A DNA stretch of 64,000 nt from Alcanivorax sp. 24. GTDB taxonomy: Bacteria; Pseudomonadota; Gammaproteobacteria; Pseudomonadales; Alcanivoracaceae. The position numbers and the translations under genes are program-made. Numbering within the stretch: the first letter of the stretch is position 1; each line of letters opens with the position of its first letter. Below are positions 1 to 62,223 of the stretch, piece after piece. The notes under the pieces were generated by a model. The model was given only the letters and a program-made list of their open reading frames with translations. It did no database searches and was not told where the DNA came from. The stretch spans positions 1 to 64,000 of the forward strand of contig NZ_SNUA01000016.1 of the NCBI RefSeq assembly GCF_004360225.1. The letters are read 5' to 3'.

Positions 1-1182
1 TGGGATACTCGCTTGCCAGCAAGCTTCCCACAGTGGCTTCGTGGCAGACCTGTGGGAGACCAGCTTGCTGGCGAGTTCCGGCCCTCTGGTGTTGGGATAT
101 TCGCTTGCCAGCAAGCTTCCCACAGCGACTTCGTGGCGGATCCGTGGGAGGCCCGCTTGCTGGCGAATTCCGGCCCTCTGGTGTTGGGATACTCGCTTGC
201 CAGCAAGCTTCCCACAGCGACTTCGTGGCGGACCTGTGGGAGACCAGCATGCTGGCGAGTTCCGGCCCTCTGGTGTTGGGATATTCACTTGCCAGCAAGC
301 TTCCCACAGCGACTTCGTGGCGGACCTGTGGGAGGCCAGCTTGCTGGCGAATTCCGGCCCTCTGGTGTTGGGATATTCGCTTGCCAGCAAGCTTCCCACA
401 GCGGCTTCGTGGCGGACCTGTGGGAGACCAGCATGCTGGCGAATTCCGGCTCTCTGGTGTTGGGATATTCGCTTGCCAGCAAGCTTCCCACAGCGGCTTC
501 GTGGCGGACCTGTGGGAGACCAGCTTGCTGGCGAGTTCCGGCCCTCTGGTGTTGGGATATTCACTTGCCAGCAAGCTTCCCACAGCGACTTCGTGGCGGA
601 CCTGTGGGAGACCAGCATGCTGGCGAGTTCCGGCCCTCTGGTGTTGGGATATTCACTTGCCAGCAAGCTTCCCACAGCGACTTCGTGGCGGACCTGTGGG
701 AGGCCAGCTTGCTGGCGAATTCCGGCCCTCTGGTGTTGGGATATTCGCTTGCCAGCAAGCTTCCCACAGCGGCTTCGTGGCGGACCTGTGGGAGACCAGC
801 ATGCTGGCGAATTCCGGCTCTCTGGTGTTGGGATATTCGCTTGCCAGCAAGCTTCCCACAGCGGCTTCGTGGCGGACCTGTGGGAGACCAGCTTGCTGGC
901 GAGTTCCGGCCCTCTGGTGTTGGGATATTCACTTGCCAGCAAGCTTCCCACAGCGACTTCGTGGCGGACCTGTGGGAGACCAGCATGCTGGCGAGTTCCG
1001 GCCCTCTGGTGTTGGGATATTCACTTGCCAGCAAGCTTCCCACAGCGACTTCGTGGCGGACCTGTGGGAGGCCAGCTTGCTGGCGAATTCCGGCCCTTTG
1101 GTGTTGGGATATTCGCTTGCCAGCAAGCTTCCCACAGCGGCTTCGTGGCGGACCTGTGGGAGACCAGCATGCTGGCGAATAG
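1..1182. repeat. Tandem REP array 1, 92-bp unit, about 13 copies
   Basis: The word GTTGGGATATTC recurs every 92 bp (for example near 91, 183, 275 and 367). Each unit holds two facing REP-like heads, CTTGCCAGCAAGCTTCCCAC and its near-complement GTGGGAGACCAGCTTGCTGG, so the unit is a REPIN/BIME-like palindromic pair. Units differ by few substitutions. A block repeats at a 368-bp (four-unit) period, for example around 285 and 653. Long reading frames cross the array in all three plus frames because the unit has few stops and 92 is not a multiple of three. I do not regard them as genes. Confidence 0.95.
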
Positions 1183-1311
1183 AGCGGCTTGGTAGCCCCT
1201 TCCGTTACAGACCCGTGTCCATGATTGAAGCGCCGTGGCCCGCCAAACCGCGATGAACCCTAAAAAGCGTTTTAGTGCTTGCCAGGGCGTTGGGTCTGGT
1301 TTTGCATTATC

Positions 1312-1395
1312 GGCGTCCGGCGTCCGGCGTCCGGCGTCCGGCGTCCGGCGTCCGGCGTCCGGCGTCCGGCGTCCGGCGTCCGGCGTCCGGCGTCC
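1312..1395. repeat. Perfect heptamer satellite (GGCGTCC)x12
   Basis: Twelve exact head-to-tail copies of GGCGTCC, directly after the sequence GGTTTTGCATTATC. The array ends 92 bp upstream of the htpG start codon. Read in frame it would give an ASGVRRP peptide repeat, which is not considered coding. Confidence 0.97.
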
Positions 1396-3380: not shown

Positions 3381-3443
3381 GAAAAGAGCGCCGGACGCCG
3401 GACGCTAAAGTCAAAACCCGGGGCTGCGGGCATTGCAGGAATA

Positions 3444-3468
3444 AAGAATTGCCGGGAGCAATTTTTAA
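3444..3468 (+). terminator. Hairpin plus T-tract behind htpG
   Basis: Stem AATTGC (3447-3452) and GCAATT (3458-3463), loop CGGGA, then TTT. It has the form of a rho-independent terminator and lies 65 nt after htpG, but it is part of the dispersed element module also found twice at 8327-8423. Confidence 0.5.
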
Positions 3469-3614
3469 CGTTGCTGTGCGACGGCCCGAAGGGTGACCGC
3501 CATGGACGGCGGTCATGAAAAGGTTCCTCGCGGTTTAGCGGGAAGGGTCGCTCCGGCGGGGGGCTCCCGTATTGCCCGGTTACCTCGAAGACCTCCCTTC
3601 AGAGGTGGCTACAG

Positions 3615-4211
3615 CGCCGCTGTGGGAAGCTTGCTGGCAAGCGAATCGCCAACGGCTCAGGGCATTCGCGGCCAAGCGGAGCGCCGCCCGGGCCGCTTCC
3701 CACAGCGGTTTCGTGGCATGATCCGTGGGAGGCCAGCTTGCTGGCGAATTCCGGCCCTCTGGTGTTGGGATATTCGCTTGCCAGCAAGCTTCCCACAGTG
3801 GCTTCGTGGCATGATCCGTGGGAGGCCAGCTTGCTGGCGAATTCCGGCCCTCTGGTGTTGGGATATTCGCTTGCCAGCAAGCTTCCCACAGCGGCTTCGT
3901 GGTAGATCCGTGGGAGACCAGCATGCTGGCGAATCCGGCCCTCCGGTGTTGGGATATTCGCTTGCCAGCAAGCTTCCCACAGCGGTTTCGTGGTAGATCC
4001 GTGGGAGACCAGCTTGCTGGCGAATTCCGGCCCTCTGGTGTTGGGATATTCGCTTGCCAGCAAGCTTCCCACAGTGGCTTCGTGGCATGATCCGTGGGAG
4101 GCCAGCTTGCTGGCGAGTTCCGGCCCTCTGGTGTTGGGATATTCGCTTGCCAGCAAGCTTCCCACAGCGGCTTCGTGGCATGATCCGTGGGAGACCGGCT
4201 TGCTGGCGAAT
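3615..4211. repeat. Tandem REP array 2, 91-93-bp units, about six copies
   Basis: Same unit family as array 1: GTTGGGATATTC recurs near 3764, 3857, 3948, 4039 and 4132. The first copy is atypical and carries the extended arm GGAGCGCCGCCCGGGCC also seen near 37915, 43980 and 58352. The spacing varies by one or two bases through small indels. Confidence 0.92.
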
Positions 4212-4451
4212 ACAGCGGCTTGATAGCCCCTTCCGTTACAGACCCGTGCCCATGATTGAAGCGCCGTGTCCCGCCAAACCGCGATGAACCAAAAAAAACG
4301 TTTTAGTGCTTGCCAGGGCGTTGGGTCTGGTTTTGCATTATCGGCGTCCGGCGAGCACCCGATGGTGGAAAGATCCGGCCCAGGCTCTTATGATGCCGGA
4401 AATTCGCGGCTTGGGCCCTGGGCCCGCGCCGCCGGACAAAGGATGCCCTGC

Positions 4452-8177: not shown

Positions 8178-8289
8178 AGACGTCGGACGCCAGACGCCAG
8201 ACGCCAGACGCCAGACGCCAGACGCTAGACGCTAGACGCTAGACGCTAGACGCTAGACGCTAGACGCTAGACGCTAGACGCTAGACGCT
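8178..8289. repeat. Heptamer satellite, 16 copies of AGACGCY type
   Basis: The copies are AGACGTC, GGACGCC, then runs of AGACGCC and finally AGACGCT. The order is a gradient of variants rather than random mixing, as expected from slippage or unequal exchange. The consensus is the reverse complement of the GGCGTCC satellite with one changed base. Confidence 0.93.
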
Positions 8290-8326
8290 AAAGTCAAAAC
8301 CTGGGGCTGCGGGCATTGCGGAAATA

Positions 8327-8349
8327 AAAAATTGCCGGGAGCAATTTTT
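8327..8349. terminator. Perfect 9-bp hairpin with T-tract (first copy)
   Basis: AAAAATTGC, loop CGGGA, GCAATTTTT. It is symmetrical, so it could terminate in either direction. The second copy lies 74 bp further on. It belongs to the dispersed element module. Confidence 0.55.
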
Positions 8350-8400
8350 AACGTTGCTCGGCGACGGCCCGAAGGGTGACCGCCATGGACGGCGGTCATA

Positions 8401-8423
8401 AAAAATTGCCGGGAGCAATTTTT
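8401..8423. terminator. Perfect 9-bp hairpin with T-tract (second copy)
   Basis: Same hairpin as at 8327-8349, inside a 74-bp tandem duplication. Each copy is followed by a second palindrome, GACCGCC-ATGGAC-GGCGGTC. Confidence 0.55.
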
Positions 8424-8524
8424 AACGTTGCTCGGCGACGGCCCGAAGGGTGACCGCCATGGACGGCGGTCATAAAAAAGCGTTTTAGTGCTTGCCAGGG
8501 CGTTGTGTCTGGTTTTGCATTATC

Positions 8525-8643
8525 GGCGTCCGGCGTCCGGCGTCCGGCGTCCGGCGTCCGGCGTCCGGCGTCCGGCGTCCGGCGTCCGGCGTCCGGCGTC
8601 CGGCGTCCGGCGTCCGGCGTCCGGCGTCCGGCGTCCGGCGTCC
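8525..8643. repeat. Perfect heptamer satellite (GGCGTCC)x17
   Basis: Seventeen exact copies without a single variant, ending 103 bp upstream of the start codon at 8747. Compare 12 copies at 1312 and 16 at 23355. Confidence 0.97.
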
Positions 8644-22937: not shown

Positions 22938-23028
22938 GGGATTATTGCATCCTGCTTATTTTGGTTAACCTGATGAGAGTGGCGTAGATGGGCGCGGAAA
23001 ATCAATCCGGTGAAAGTGCTATTAGGGG

Positions 23029-23466
23029 CCAGACGCCGGACGCTAAAGTCAAAACCCGGGGCCGTACTACGGGCACGGGTCTGTAACGGAAGGGGCTACC
23101 AACCGCTGTATTCGCCAGCAAGCGGGTCTCCCACGGAGCATGCCACGAAGCCGCTGTGGGAAGCGGCCTTGGCCGCGAATGCCCTGGGCCGTTGGCGATT
23201 CGCTTGCAAGCAAGCTTCCCACGGCGGCTTCGTAGCCCCTTCCGATTACAGACCCGTGCCCGTAATTGAAGCGCCGCGGCCCGCTAAACCGCGATGAACC
23301 ATAAAAAAGCGTTTTTCGTGCTTGCCAGGGCGTTGTGTCTGGTTTTGCATTATCGGCGTCCGGCGTCCGGCGTCCGGCGTCCGGCGTCCGGCGTCCGGCG
23401 TCCGGCGTCCGGCGTCCGGCGTCCGGCGTCCGGCGTCCGGCGTCCGGCGTCCGGCGTCCGGCGTCC
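23029..23466. mobile_element. Composite repeat element D
   Basis: The left end has AGACGCC and GGACGCT heptamers plus AAAGTCAAAACCCGGGG. An inverted copy of the conserved module follows (23064-23100). A few REP heads (about 23105-23225) come next, then the direct copy of the module (23230-23297), the right end with GGTTTTGCATTATC, and 16 GGCGTCC heptamers. The two module copies are complementary except for one base insertion, so element D is close to a long palindrome. It occupies most of the 591-bp gap before prmB. Confidence 0.6.
23355..23466. repeat. Perfect heptamer satellite (GGCGTCC)x16
   Basis: Sixteen exact copies ending 62 bp before the prmB start, so the satellite overlaps or abuts the prmB promoter region. 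Confidence 0.97.
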
Positions 23467-25590: not shown

Positions 25591-26700
25591 TGAACAGGGA
25601 ATAGTTAACAGTGAAAATCAAAAGCGCTGGTCTTTAGCCCCTGTGGGAAGCTTGCTCGCAAGCGAATGAGCCAACGGCGGTGAACACAATTCGCTGCCCC
25701 GGCAGCTTCCCACAGAGCCGGGCCACGAGGCGGCTGTGGGAAGCTTGCTCGCAAGCGAATTCAGCAACGGCGGTGAAGACAATTCGCTGCCCAGGCAACT
25801 TCCCACAGAGCCGGGCCACGAGGCGGCTGTGGGAAGCTTGCTCGCAAGCGAATTCAGCAACGGCGGTGAAGACAATTCGCTGCCCAGGCAACTTCCCACA
25901 GAGAAGGGCCACGAAGCGGCTGTGGGAAGCTTGCTCGCAAGCGAATGAGCCAACGGCGGGGAAGACAATTCGCTGCCCAGGCAGCTTCCCACAGAGAAGG
26001 GTCACGAAGCCCCTGTGGGAAGCTTGCTCGCAAGCGAATGAGCCAACGGCGGTGAACACAATTCGCTGCCCAGGCAACTTCCCACGGAGCCGGGCCACGA
26101 AGCCGTTGTGGGAAGCTTGCTTGCAATCGAATGAGCCAACGGCGGTGAAGACAATTCGCTGCCCAGGCAGCTTCCCACGGAGCCGGGCCACGAAGCCGCT
26201 GTGGGAAGCTTGCTCGCAAGCGAATGAGCCAACGGCGGTGAAGGCAATTCGCTGCCCAGGCAGCTTCCCACGGAGCCGGGCCACGAAGCCGCTGTGGGAA
26301 GCTTGCTCGCAAGCGAATGAGCCAACGGCGGTGAACACAATTCGCTGCCCAGGCAGCTTCCCACAGAGCCGGGCCACGAAGCCCCTGTGGGAAGCTTGCT
26401 CGCAAGCGAATTCAGCAACGGCGGTGAACACAATTCGCTGCCCAGGCCGCTTCCCACGGAGCCGGGCCACGAAGCCGCTGTGGGAAGCTTGCTTGCAAGC
26501 GAATGAGCCAACGGCGGTGAACACAATTCGCTGCCCAGGCAGCTTCCCACAGAGAAGGGCCACGAAGCCGTTGTGGGAAGCTTGCTCGCAAGCGAATATC
26601 CCAATGCTGGAGACGCATTCGCCAGCAGGCTGGCTCTCACAGCAAAGACACGAACTGTTTTTGACTTTCGCTATTCACTCTTAACTATTCACTATTAATT
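25581..26700. mobile_element. AT-rich-ended element carrying REP array 3
   Basis: Left end AGTGAATAGTGAACAGGG (25581 on) with inner TGGTCTTTAGCC. Right end CTGTTTTTGACTTTCGC and ATTCACTCTTAACTATTC (to 26700). The much smaller element at 52624-52803 has matching left (TGATCTTTAGCC) and right (CTGTTTTTGTCTTTCC) inner ends but only one REPIN. The present element therefore looks like an amplified version of the same type. aroC and the LysR gene both end inside it. Confidence 0.6.
25636..26601. repeat. Tandem REP array 3, 93-bp unit, ten full periods
   Basis: The TGTGGGAAGCTTGCT word starts at about 25641 and recurs every 93 bp up to about 26571, ten periods without one indel. Each unit is a palindromic REP pair with loops that vary among a few forms (GAGCC or TCAGC, GGTGAACAC or GGTGAAGAC, GAGCCGGG or GAGAAGGG). 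Part of it (26060-26170) is identical to 62006-62116 in array 4. Confidence 0.95.
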
Positions 26701-61190: not shown

Positions 61191-61212
61191 TGTGGAGCGA
61201 GTGGGATCGAGC

Positions 61213-62223
61213 CGCTGTGGGAAGCTTGCTTGCAAGCGAATGGGGCAACGGTGGTGAAGACAATTCGCTGCCCAGGCCGCTTCCCACAGAGAAGGGCCAC
61301 GAAGCCGCTGTGGGAAGCTTGCTCGCAAGCGAATGGGGCAACGGTGGTGAAGACAATTCGCTGCCCAGGCAGCTTCCCACAGAGCCGGGCCACGAGGCGG
61401 CTGTGGGAAGCTTGCTCGCAAGCGAATGAGCCAACGGCGGGGAAGACAATTCGCTGCCCAGGCAACTTCCCACAGAGAAGGGCCACGAAGCGGCTGTGGG
61501 AAGCTTGCTCGCAAGCGAATGAGCCAACGGCGGGGAAGACAATTCGCTGCCCAGGCAGCTTCCCACAGAGCCGGGCCACGAAGCGGCTGTGGGAAGCTTG
61601 CTCGCAAGCGAATGAGCCAACGGCGGGGAAGACAATTCGCTGCCCAGGCAACTTCCCACAGAGCCGGGCCACGAAGCCGCTGTGGGAAGCTTGCTCGCAA
61701 GCGAATGGGGCAACGGCGGGGAAGACAATTCGCTGCCCAGGCAACTTCCCACAGAGAAGGACCACGAAGCCGCTGTGGGAAGCTTGCTCGCAAGCGAATT
61801 CAGCAACGGCGGTGAAGACAATTCGCTGCCCAGGCAGCTTCCCACAGAGCTGGGCCACGAGGCGGCTGTGGGAAGCTTGCTCGCAAGCGAATGGGGCAAC
61901 GGCGGTGAAGACAATTCGCTGCCCAGGCAGCTTCCCACAGAGAAGGGCCACGAAGCCGCTGTGGGAAGCTTGCTCGCAAGCGAATGAGCCAACGGCGGGG
62001 AAGACAATTCGCTGCCCAGGCAACTTCCCACGGAGCCGGGCCACGAAGCCGTTGTGGGAAGCTTGCTTGCAATCGAATGAGCCAACGGCGGTGAAGACAA
62101 TTCGCTGCCCAGGCAGTTTCCCACAGAGCCGGGCCACGAAGCCGCTGTGGGAAGCTTGCTTGCAAGCGAATATTGCCAAGCGCTCGAGAGAATCCCATTC
62201 GCTTGCAAGCAAGCTTCCCACGG
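61213..62223. repeat. Tandem REP array 4, 93-bp unit, ten full periods
   Basis: The TGTGGGAAGCTTGCT word begins at about 61215 and recurs every 93 bp to about 62145, again ten periods with no indel. The variant loops (GAGCC, TCAGC and GGGGC; CCGGG and AAGGG; CAACT and CAGCT) are shuffled relative to array 3. TTTTGTTTGTGG...TGGGATCG occurs as a direct repeat on both sides (61184-61209 and 62250-62275). The array fills the 1.2-kb gap between the permease and hyi. Confidence 0.95.

Follow-up and report, generated by a model that had tools for sequence, protein, structure and literature searches.

A dispersed repeat with heptamer-array ends in Alcanivorax sp. 24 whose orientation follows replication

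The stretch of DNA analysed here, referred to as the window, comprises 64,000 nucleotides of the Alcanivorax sp. 24 draft genome (C16:1-64000) and contains four loci at which tandem heptamers border a mixture of other repeats, raising the question of what these loci are and how they spread. The original prediction described a common right end followed by heptamers at all four loci, a left end at three of them, and ends that are imperfect inverted repeats of one another. The window bears this out: GCCGGACGC..AAAACC at the left matches the reverse complement of GGTTTT..GCGTCCGGC at the right, and the left-end pattern is found at positions 3401, 8284 and 23039. The first locus (1-1395) lacks a left end because the contig begins within the REP array of its element.

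All features of the four elements are given on the + strand. Element 1 consists of a RAYT-type REP array with a 92-bp period (1-1180, detected by TRF), which belongs to the same REP family as that beside the Y1/RAYT gene L208, one end of a nested ISL3-type MITE, ending CCCGC..AAACCGCGATGAACC (1181-1259), which is the 70-bp module of the original prediction, the core right end identified by pattern match (1260-1311) and a right heptamer array, (GGCGTCC)12 (1312-1395). Element 2 opens with the left heptamer array GCCGGACGCCGGACGC (3390-3405) and continues with a type A core left end, TAAAGTCAAAACCCGG..GCATTGC.. (3406-3448), a single copy of the hairpin module TTGCCGGGAGCAATTTTTAACG.. (3449-3514), a nested ISL3-type MITE (GGTTCCTCGCGGTTTAGCGGG .. 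CGCGATGAACC; 3522-4290) holding a REP array at 3695-4211, the core right end (4291-4342) and a minimal right heptamer end of 1.4 units, GGCGTCCGGC (4343-4352). In element 3, a left array of 16 units, of which the core-adjoining AGACGCT is present ten times (8178-8288), is followed by the core left end (8289-8331), two tandem copies of the hairpin module (8332-8471; TRF gives 8324-8479, period 74, 2.1 copies), the core right end (8472-8524) and (GGCGTCC)17 (8525-8643). Element 4 has a left array of about two units (23028-23043), the core left end TAAAGTCAAAACCCGGGG (23044-23065), MITE-derived sequence with one REP, in which the 70-bp module also occurs inverted and which is classed as mixed (23066-23300), the core right end (23301-23354) and (GGCGTCC)16 (23355-23466). 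Rfam returned nothing at the gathering score for positions 1-30000. Outside the heptamer elements, the window also holds two REP arrays 35 kb apart (25636-26597 and 61210-62171), each of 0.96 kb with a 93-bp period and 10.3 copies, that are 92.5% identical over 964 bp.

The four loci are members of a dispersed repeat family in the genus of Alloalcanivorax mobilis, and the 4.76-Mb draft genome of Alcanivorax sp. 24 (the own genome, G000) carries about 50 copies. When the right end, which the original prediction had suggested as a genome-wide query together with its heptamer, was used as a 37-bp pattern with up to three mismatches, 42 matches were obtained, compared with none for the reversed-pattern control; a 14-bp left-end query gave 32 matches and three consecutive heptamers gave 353 overlapping match positions, again with no control matches. 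The copies have discrete ends in a constant order. The stretches that were read contain 45 right-end and 36 left-end records. Minimal copies, such as C11:107536, C26:22638 and C30:127, measure about 90 bp (90-94 bp when counted from the innermost left heptamer up to the array on the right) and read TAAAGTCAAAACC..GGTTTTGCATTATC, with inverted heptamer arrays extending outwards. The core runs from the left end TAAAGTCAAAACCCGGGGCTGCGGGCATTGCGG through an A-rich stretch to GCGTTTTAGTGCTTGCCAGGGCGTTGGGTCTGGTTTTGCATTATC; its outer tip is inverted (GCCGGACGCC..GGCGTCCGGC), as is AAAACC/GGTTTT, imperfectly, and inside the tip the two ends are strongly unlike. A second form, type B, has the left end TTTAGAACAYC..TTGCGGATATAAA and a similar right end, and pattern search recovered 12 copies of it in the own genome. 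Near-identical cores with exact ends occur at some forty own-genome loci.

The original prediction regarded the loci as modular composites. The REP, hairpin and 70-bp modules are indeed present, but they do not form one system: they are separate repeats lying within the A-rich middle of the ~90-bp core, and the extra sequence of larger copies lies between the A-rich stretch and GCGTTTTAG. The conserved 70-bp module and its inverted copy were both seen, and prove to be the two ends of one repeat, GGTTCATCGCGGTTTAG.., an end of which is present (up to two mismatches) in all 13 genus genomes. In genomes G011 and G005 the same repeat end bounds 1.36-kb elements (copies L266-L268) with a 401-aa ORF; the protein of L266, the one scanned, matches DDE_Tnp_ISL3 (E 1.4e-66), and the ORFs of L267 and L268 are near-identical and likewise of 401 aa. 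The sequence ATAAAAAA is duplicated on both sides of L267 and ATTAAAAA on both sides of L268, and ATAAAAAA also stands beside the module in the A-rich stretch of the core. An 8-bp duplication is usual in the ISL3 family. Since the ends are common to ISL3 transposase copies and an 8-bp duplication is present, the inner module is an ISL3-type MITE. The ISL3 family (Pfam PF01610), which shares the ends GGTTCATCGCGG and the AT-rich 8-bp duplication, accounts for the module, but not for the heptamer-ended core. Among 38 copies, the MITE lies one way in 11 and the opposite way in 3, is partial or mixed in 11 and is lacking in 13. The REPs inside it match those beside the Y1/RAYT gene at C12:2883, and L208 shows nine REPs of this family at ~93-bp spacing beside a Y1/RAYT gene, so that the inner arrays, and these alone, are RAYT-associated REPs. 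The hairpin module measures 74 bp and is present in 0-2 copies per element. The modules are mostly ordinary nested repeats, namely an ISL3-type MITE and, inside it, REP arrays that belong to a resident RAYT.

Two further observations concern these modules. By eye, the ISL3-type MITE and its 1.36-kb parent (L266-L278) often lie in A/T runs beside GC-rich hairpins, settings that look as if the T-tracts of intrinsic terminators were favoured. At C6:66250-67350 of the own genome (L080/L081), a copy without a left end begins at the MITE end, beside an apparently truncated coding sequence.

The empty sites in relatives that the original prediction had proposed as support were found. The unique flanks of 14 own-genome copies were located in three close relatives (G006-G008; 86-96% identity), and 40 of the 42 orthologous loci were read, site 0 through its right flank and 1 kb upstream only. 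At 13 sites occupied in the own genome (sites 0-12), neither core end was present in any of 39 relative loci, and the element is therefore an insertion. At site 13, where G006 alone was read, this relative carries a B-like element with a MITE, recognised by eye and too diverged for the pattern. The gap between the flanks in the relatives is mostly 0-43 bp; longer gaps without a core occur at sites 7 (90-91 bp in two relatives), 10 (80-183 bp, some with REPs), 11 (64 bp in G008) and 12 (99 bp in G006), and site 8 holds 236 bp of another repeat in G007 and a heptamer palindrome without a core in two relatives. No heptamer pair was detected by pattern at 38 of the 40 loci, and no fixed target motif was seen by eye in the empty sites. 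The element shares with MITEs its scattered, almost identical copies with exact ends, its empty sites and its terminal inverted repeats, imperfect though these are. The target duplications anticipated by the original prediction did not emerge: the minimal copies show no consistent one, the heptamer arrays obscure the junctions, and a possible GAGC repeat was noted only at the ends of element 2 (C16:3401).

A pre-existing hairpin or terminator as the target rule was rejected, as the mean longest stem was 4.9 in 28 empty sites, compared with 5.2 in 99 post-stop controls and 4.7 in 200 random windows; the 28 sites were drawn from 36 relative loci at sites 1-12 after 8 whose flanks stand more than 60 bp apart had been set aside. 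Core-less heptamer palindromes as a general target also fared poorly, with 12 compared with 8 for the control in the own genome and 21 compared with 8 in G008. As a separate observation, a 28-bp perfect palindrome, GTCGGACGTCTGACGTCAGACGTCCGAC, built of four heptamers of the form GTCNGAC, lies at site 7 of G006 (L162), and 21 bases of it recur at site 12 of G007 (L178); both are at or near places that hold the element in the own genome.

Outside the core, the heptamer arrays span 1-17 units on the left and 1-22 units on the right, with means of 4.6 and 8.4 units in the 38 copies in which both were counted, and the shortest usual tips are GCCGGACGCCRGACGC and GGCGTCCGGC, respectively. The unit adjoining the core is the amplified variant in two left arrays, C16:8284 (AGACGCT ten times, then AGACGCC four times) and C5:127 (eight times, then nine). 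Of the 13 left arrays that have five or more units, the remaining 11 have a single copy of the boundary unit, and a run of a near-identical unit often comes next; the right arrays inspected have nearly uniform units, as seen with an array finder that allows one mismatch. Growth of the heptamers near the core would fit these arrays.

The orientation of the copies, which the original prediction did not address, follows replication. Flank queries were oriented to the left-to-right direction of the element, and the best hit of each query piece was taken on the complete relative G006, which consists of one contig. Its GC skew, taken in 20 samples, is positive to 2.46 Mb and negative from 2.71 Mb, and its sequence starts with ORFs that we take to be dnaA/dnaN/recF/gyrB-like. 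All 48 records (14/14 and 34/34) were placed either on the + strand at 0.26-2.16 Mb, in the right replichore, or on the - strand at 2.70-4.71 Mb, in the left. These records represent 46 loci, because two loci are represented twice, at the contig ends C18/C3 and C26/C11. In 46 of 46 mapped loci, on both replichores, the left-to-right strand of the element is thus the lagging-strand template; random orientation would yield such agreement with a chance of about 2^-45. The same pattern is seen without recourse to G006 on own-genome contig C3, which spans the terminus and along which the skew changes sign at ~205-225 kb: the six elements there lie on the + strand at 26 and 171 kb and on the - strand at 291, 338, 348 and 420 kb, flipping as the skew does. 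Six further copies are consistent, four of them on C3, with C15:13741 and C5:152592 agreeing with their contigs. Left-end hits with two mismatches were kept outside the polarity count; C12:145047 (-) and C15:117796 (+) agree with the other elements on their respective contigs, and C25:26624 (+), like G008 C35:39173, was left unplaced. Transcription was ruled out as the cause of the orientation, since crude ORF calls made without annotation show no orientation rule for the neighbouring genes (codirectional in 21 of 41 cases on the left and 26 of 42 on the right). The complete polarity suggests that the element spread while one strand was briefly single during copying.

Beyond the own genome, the left end was searched in GTDB genomes and matched 11 stretches, all from A. 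mobilis MT13131. With up to two mismatches, it occurs 39 times in the own genome, 45 times in A. mobilis (G001), once in G008 and once in G009 (two mismatches), with no match for the reversed control; the other 9 of the 13 genus genomes, G002-G005, G010 and G011 among them, have none. Among 57 genomes of the own strain, genus, family and order, a DNA search matched four, all of one genus; PLSDB plasmids gave no match to the 103-base core, and the left-end pattern has no exact counterpart in IMG/VR. The A. mobilis cores largely keep the left ~40 bp and vary in the remainder, and from species to species the cores are very different. Other cores, GGTGTGTTT..AAACACACC hairpins, are also enclosed by these heptamers in A. 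mobilis and G012. At L183 and L184 (G012) and L188 (G007), no core could be recognised, and the inverted heptamer arrays enclose loops of just 14, 22 and 26 nt. Of the other A. mobilis structures observed, L193 (G001 C22:9574-9834) comprises three head-to-tail element copies with short heptamer blocks between them, and L105 (G001 C1:231972) has the usual left core flanked by long inverted arrays of a CACGC-rich unit that is not the heptamer. One intergenic place carries different cores or modules in three species (by G000 C11:110815, at G006 C1:2063437 and at G001 C4:67502), which may reflect either turnover of cores at an ancestral site or a hot spot; in the own genome it lies downstream of the gene to its left, which is presumably ammonium-transporter-like.

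The polarity of A. mobilis copies is weaker evidence because the replichores of G006 were used. Of 19 flank queries, 13 were placed, of which 11 agree and two do not, namely L105, the flanks of which are other repeats, and L131 at 903; five had no hit and L190 had short conflicting hits only. L133 and L134 were placed by short matches, and a weaker second hit of L133 would disagree. Orientations are mixed within A. mobilis contigs.

The linked or trans-acting recombinase envisaged by the original prediction did not come to light in the places searched. No linked transposase was found, the longest left-right pair among 33 type A pairs being 1413 bp (with a pairing limit of 1.8 kb and five unpaired ends read in part). 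Y1 genes are present in all 13 genus genomes, with or without the element, and a Y1/RAYT gene was rejected as its partner in a search confined to Y1 loci: none of 48 loci carries element ends within ~1.5 kb on each side, some of these spans being cut by contig ends. A looser pattern gave one 13-base core-like match, at Y1 locus L212. The own genome has Y1 genes at C12:2883, C16:66121 and C21:55146. When folded as single-stranded DNA, four of four sequences pair their heptamer arms, with z from -1.9 to -8.7 and below -2 in three; folding is weak for the type A core from the own genome (z -1.9, with 8 of 200 shuffles as good).

The element may be non-autonomous and mobilised in trans on the lagging-strand template at the fork, probably via single-stranded DNA, a reading that we hold with about even confidence. 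Fork-coupled orientation is a signature of IS200/IS605 single-strand transposition and of TnsE-guided Tn7 in the accessible portions of two reports (PMC5371812, PMC6006769). Mobilisation in trans on the lagging template is favoured because the replication-following orientation is a mark of IS200/IS605 and the single strand folds through the heptamer arms. A putative trans-acting enzyme would excise the element and/or insert it in single-stranded form where the lagging-strand template is exposed, and would recognise a folded strand composed of a heptamer stem, an asymmetric bulge and an AAAACC/GGTTTT stem, in a manner likened to the Y1/HUH mode of IS200/IS605. Membership of that group is not claimed, because no Y1 locus carries the ends. 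Heptamers would grow by replication slippage at the base of the hairpin, near the core; the modules were added by an ISL3-family transposase, with its AT-rich duplication of 8 bp (ATAAAAAA), and by amplification of RAYT-type REPs, and the larger composites might subsequently move as units. The two of 13 A. mobilis copies that depart from the rule, the contigs of mixed orientation and the failure of the hairpin-target idea count against this reading, as do the negative search for a transposase linked to the ends, the occurrence of Y1 genes regardless of the element and the weak fold of the type A core.

A further point against it is that inverted tips characterise DDE transposons more than they do IS200/IS605. 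The minimal copies have such tips (GCCGGACGCC/GGCGTCCGGC), and a TIR-type (DDE) transposase acting in trans might therefore move a double-stranded element, with polarity arising from target choice via the beta clamp or fork structure, as with TnsE of Tn7. That the Y1 genes checked are without element ends speaks for this alternative, as does fork-directed orientation, which the accessible part of one paper (PMC5371812) describes for TnsE and also for several IS families. The lack of a consistent target duplication at minimal copies, the possible GAGC of C16:3401 apart, and the strong difference between left and right ends inside the tip weigh against it, and we regard it as fairly unlikely. 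A bolder view, to which we give slightly less credence, is that the elements form a new class of fork-borne single-strand element, with self-growing heptamer satellites as ends: the arrays would form the stem of the transferred hairpin, lengthen beside the core and act as sockets where cores are swapped over evolution, which would give unrelated cores within the same heptamers in different species.

Orientation might instead have been selected after insertion, if the element were a polar chromosomal signal or were harmful in one direction at the fork, so that wrong-way copies were lost. A polarity that is complete in the own genome and independent of genes is what such selection might leave. 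The copies are, however, missing at 13 sites from three close relatives, 9 of 13 genomes in the genus have no left-end pattern, both orientations occur among the A. mobilis copies and cores are widely different between species, which together make selection a distinctly unlikely explanation. Cassette exchange by single-strand annealing, in which a single-stranded copy (for example transcript cDNA) would use its heptamer arms to anneal with heptamer sites at the fork and so become incorporated, is more doubtful still. It draws on the same heptamers flanking quite different cores across species, even loops of 14-26 nt, on three orthologous places, recognised by eye, with different cores or modules (C11:112750 and G008 C38; G001 C59 and G006; the C11:110815 site), and on the core-less heptamer palindrome at site 8 in two relatives. 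Against it, core-less palindromes reach only about twice the control (167 compared with 86 in all 13 genus genomes, counted on one strand, as any palindrome appears on the other too), the pattern search detected no heptamer pair at 38 of 40 relative loci, and the shared sites could be hot spots. Ordinary satellite growth, with heptamer microsatellites arising at gene ends around intervening sequence, is hardly credible: heptamer arrays are enriched in some bacteria according to the accessible part of one study (PMC4692102), but near-identical cores with exact ends at some forty loci, missing in relatives, already refute it for the own genome.

With mobilisation in trans on the lagging template as the preferred reading, several known systems may be compared. 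The (GGGAATC)n arrays of Xanthomonas comprise 2-26 units and are mostly intergenic, near gene ends, and 70 (Xcc) and 75 (Xac) convergent inverted pairs could fold into a stem-loop (Rehm et al. 2015, PMC4692102, accessible portions). The arrays studied here resemble them in being convergent, inverted and intergenic. The Xanthomonas heptamer is, on the other hand, a different, G-rich one, for which the authors report no leading or lagging preference and generally no mobile-element link, and the accessible portions of the same study describe no conserved core, whereas here the pair frames a mobile core and the polarity is complete in the own genome. The elements share with IS200/IS605 and RAYT/REP systems (REPIN, TIRYT) the form of a short, hairpin-forming intergenic repeat and an orientation that follows replication, with one strand in the lagging template; TIR families tied to Y1 transposases also exist, and IS200/IS605 orientation is described as following replication (PMC6006769, PMC5371812, PMC3733652, accessible portions). 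Unlike those systems, the core contains no GTAG- or CGTC-tagged REP by eye and its ends flank none of the Y1 genes examined, and the accessible portions of these three papers mention no heptamer satellites in such systems. The BrickBuilt MITE of Porphyromonas gingivalis likewise joins a MITE to a tandem repeat, with 19 intergenic copies in one strain, but its 23-nt repeat lies inside the element, whereas here inverted arrays stand at both tips (PMC4596501, accessible part). Literature searches, with most subscription journals outside their coverage, returned no heptamer-ended mobile repeat in Alcanivorax or Alloalcanivorax and no report of a heptamer-ended mobile core combined with fork polarity. 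The group II intron RmInt1 consists of a ribozyme and a reverse transcriptase and is far larger than 90 bp. It inserts predominantly into the lagging-strand template (PMC8914252, accessible part). The statement in the original prediction that no known IS or MITE with a 7-bp satellite terminus came to mind thus needs qualification: inverted heptamer arrays as such are published for Xanthomonas (PMC4692102, accessible portions), and it is the combination for which these searches returned no report.

The 46 mapped insertions, all lying with the direction of the fork and without a link to genes, provide a clean natural case for replication guiding small mobile DNA. The heptamer ends join bacterial microsatellites and MITEs, which are usually studied apart, and suggest a reason for the inverted heptamer pairs of some bacteria. 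Once found, the enzyme would make it possible to tell whether elements of this kind could have left the inverted heptamer arrays of other bacteria, such as Xanthomonas, as scars.
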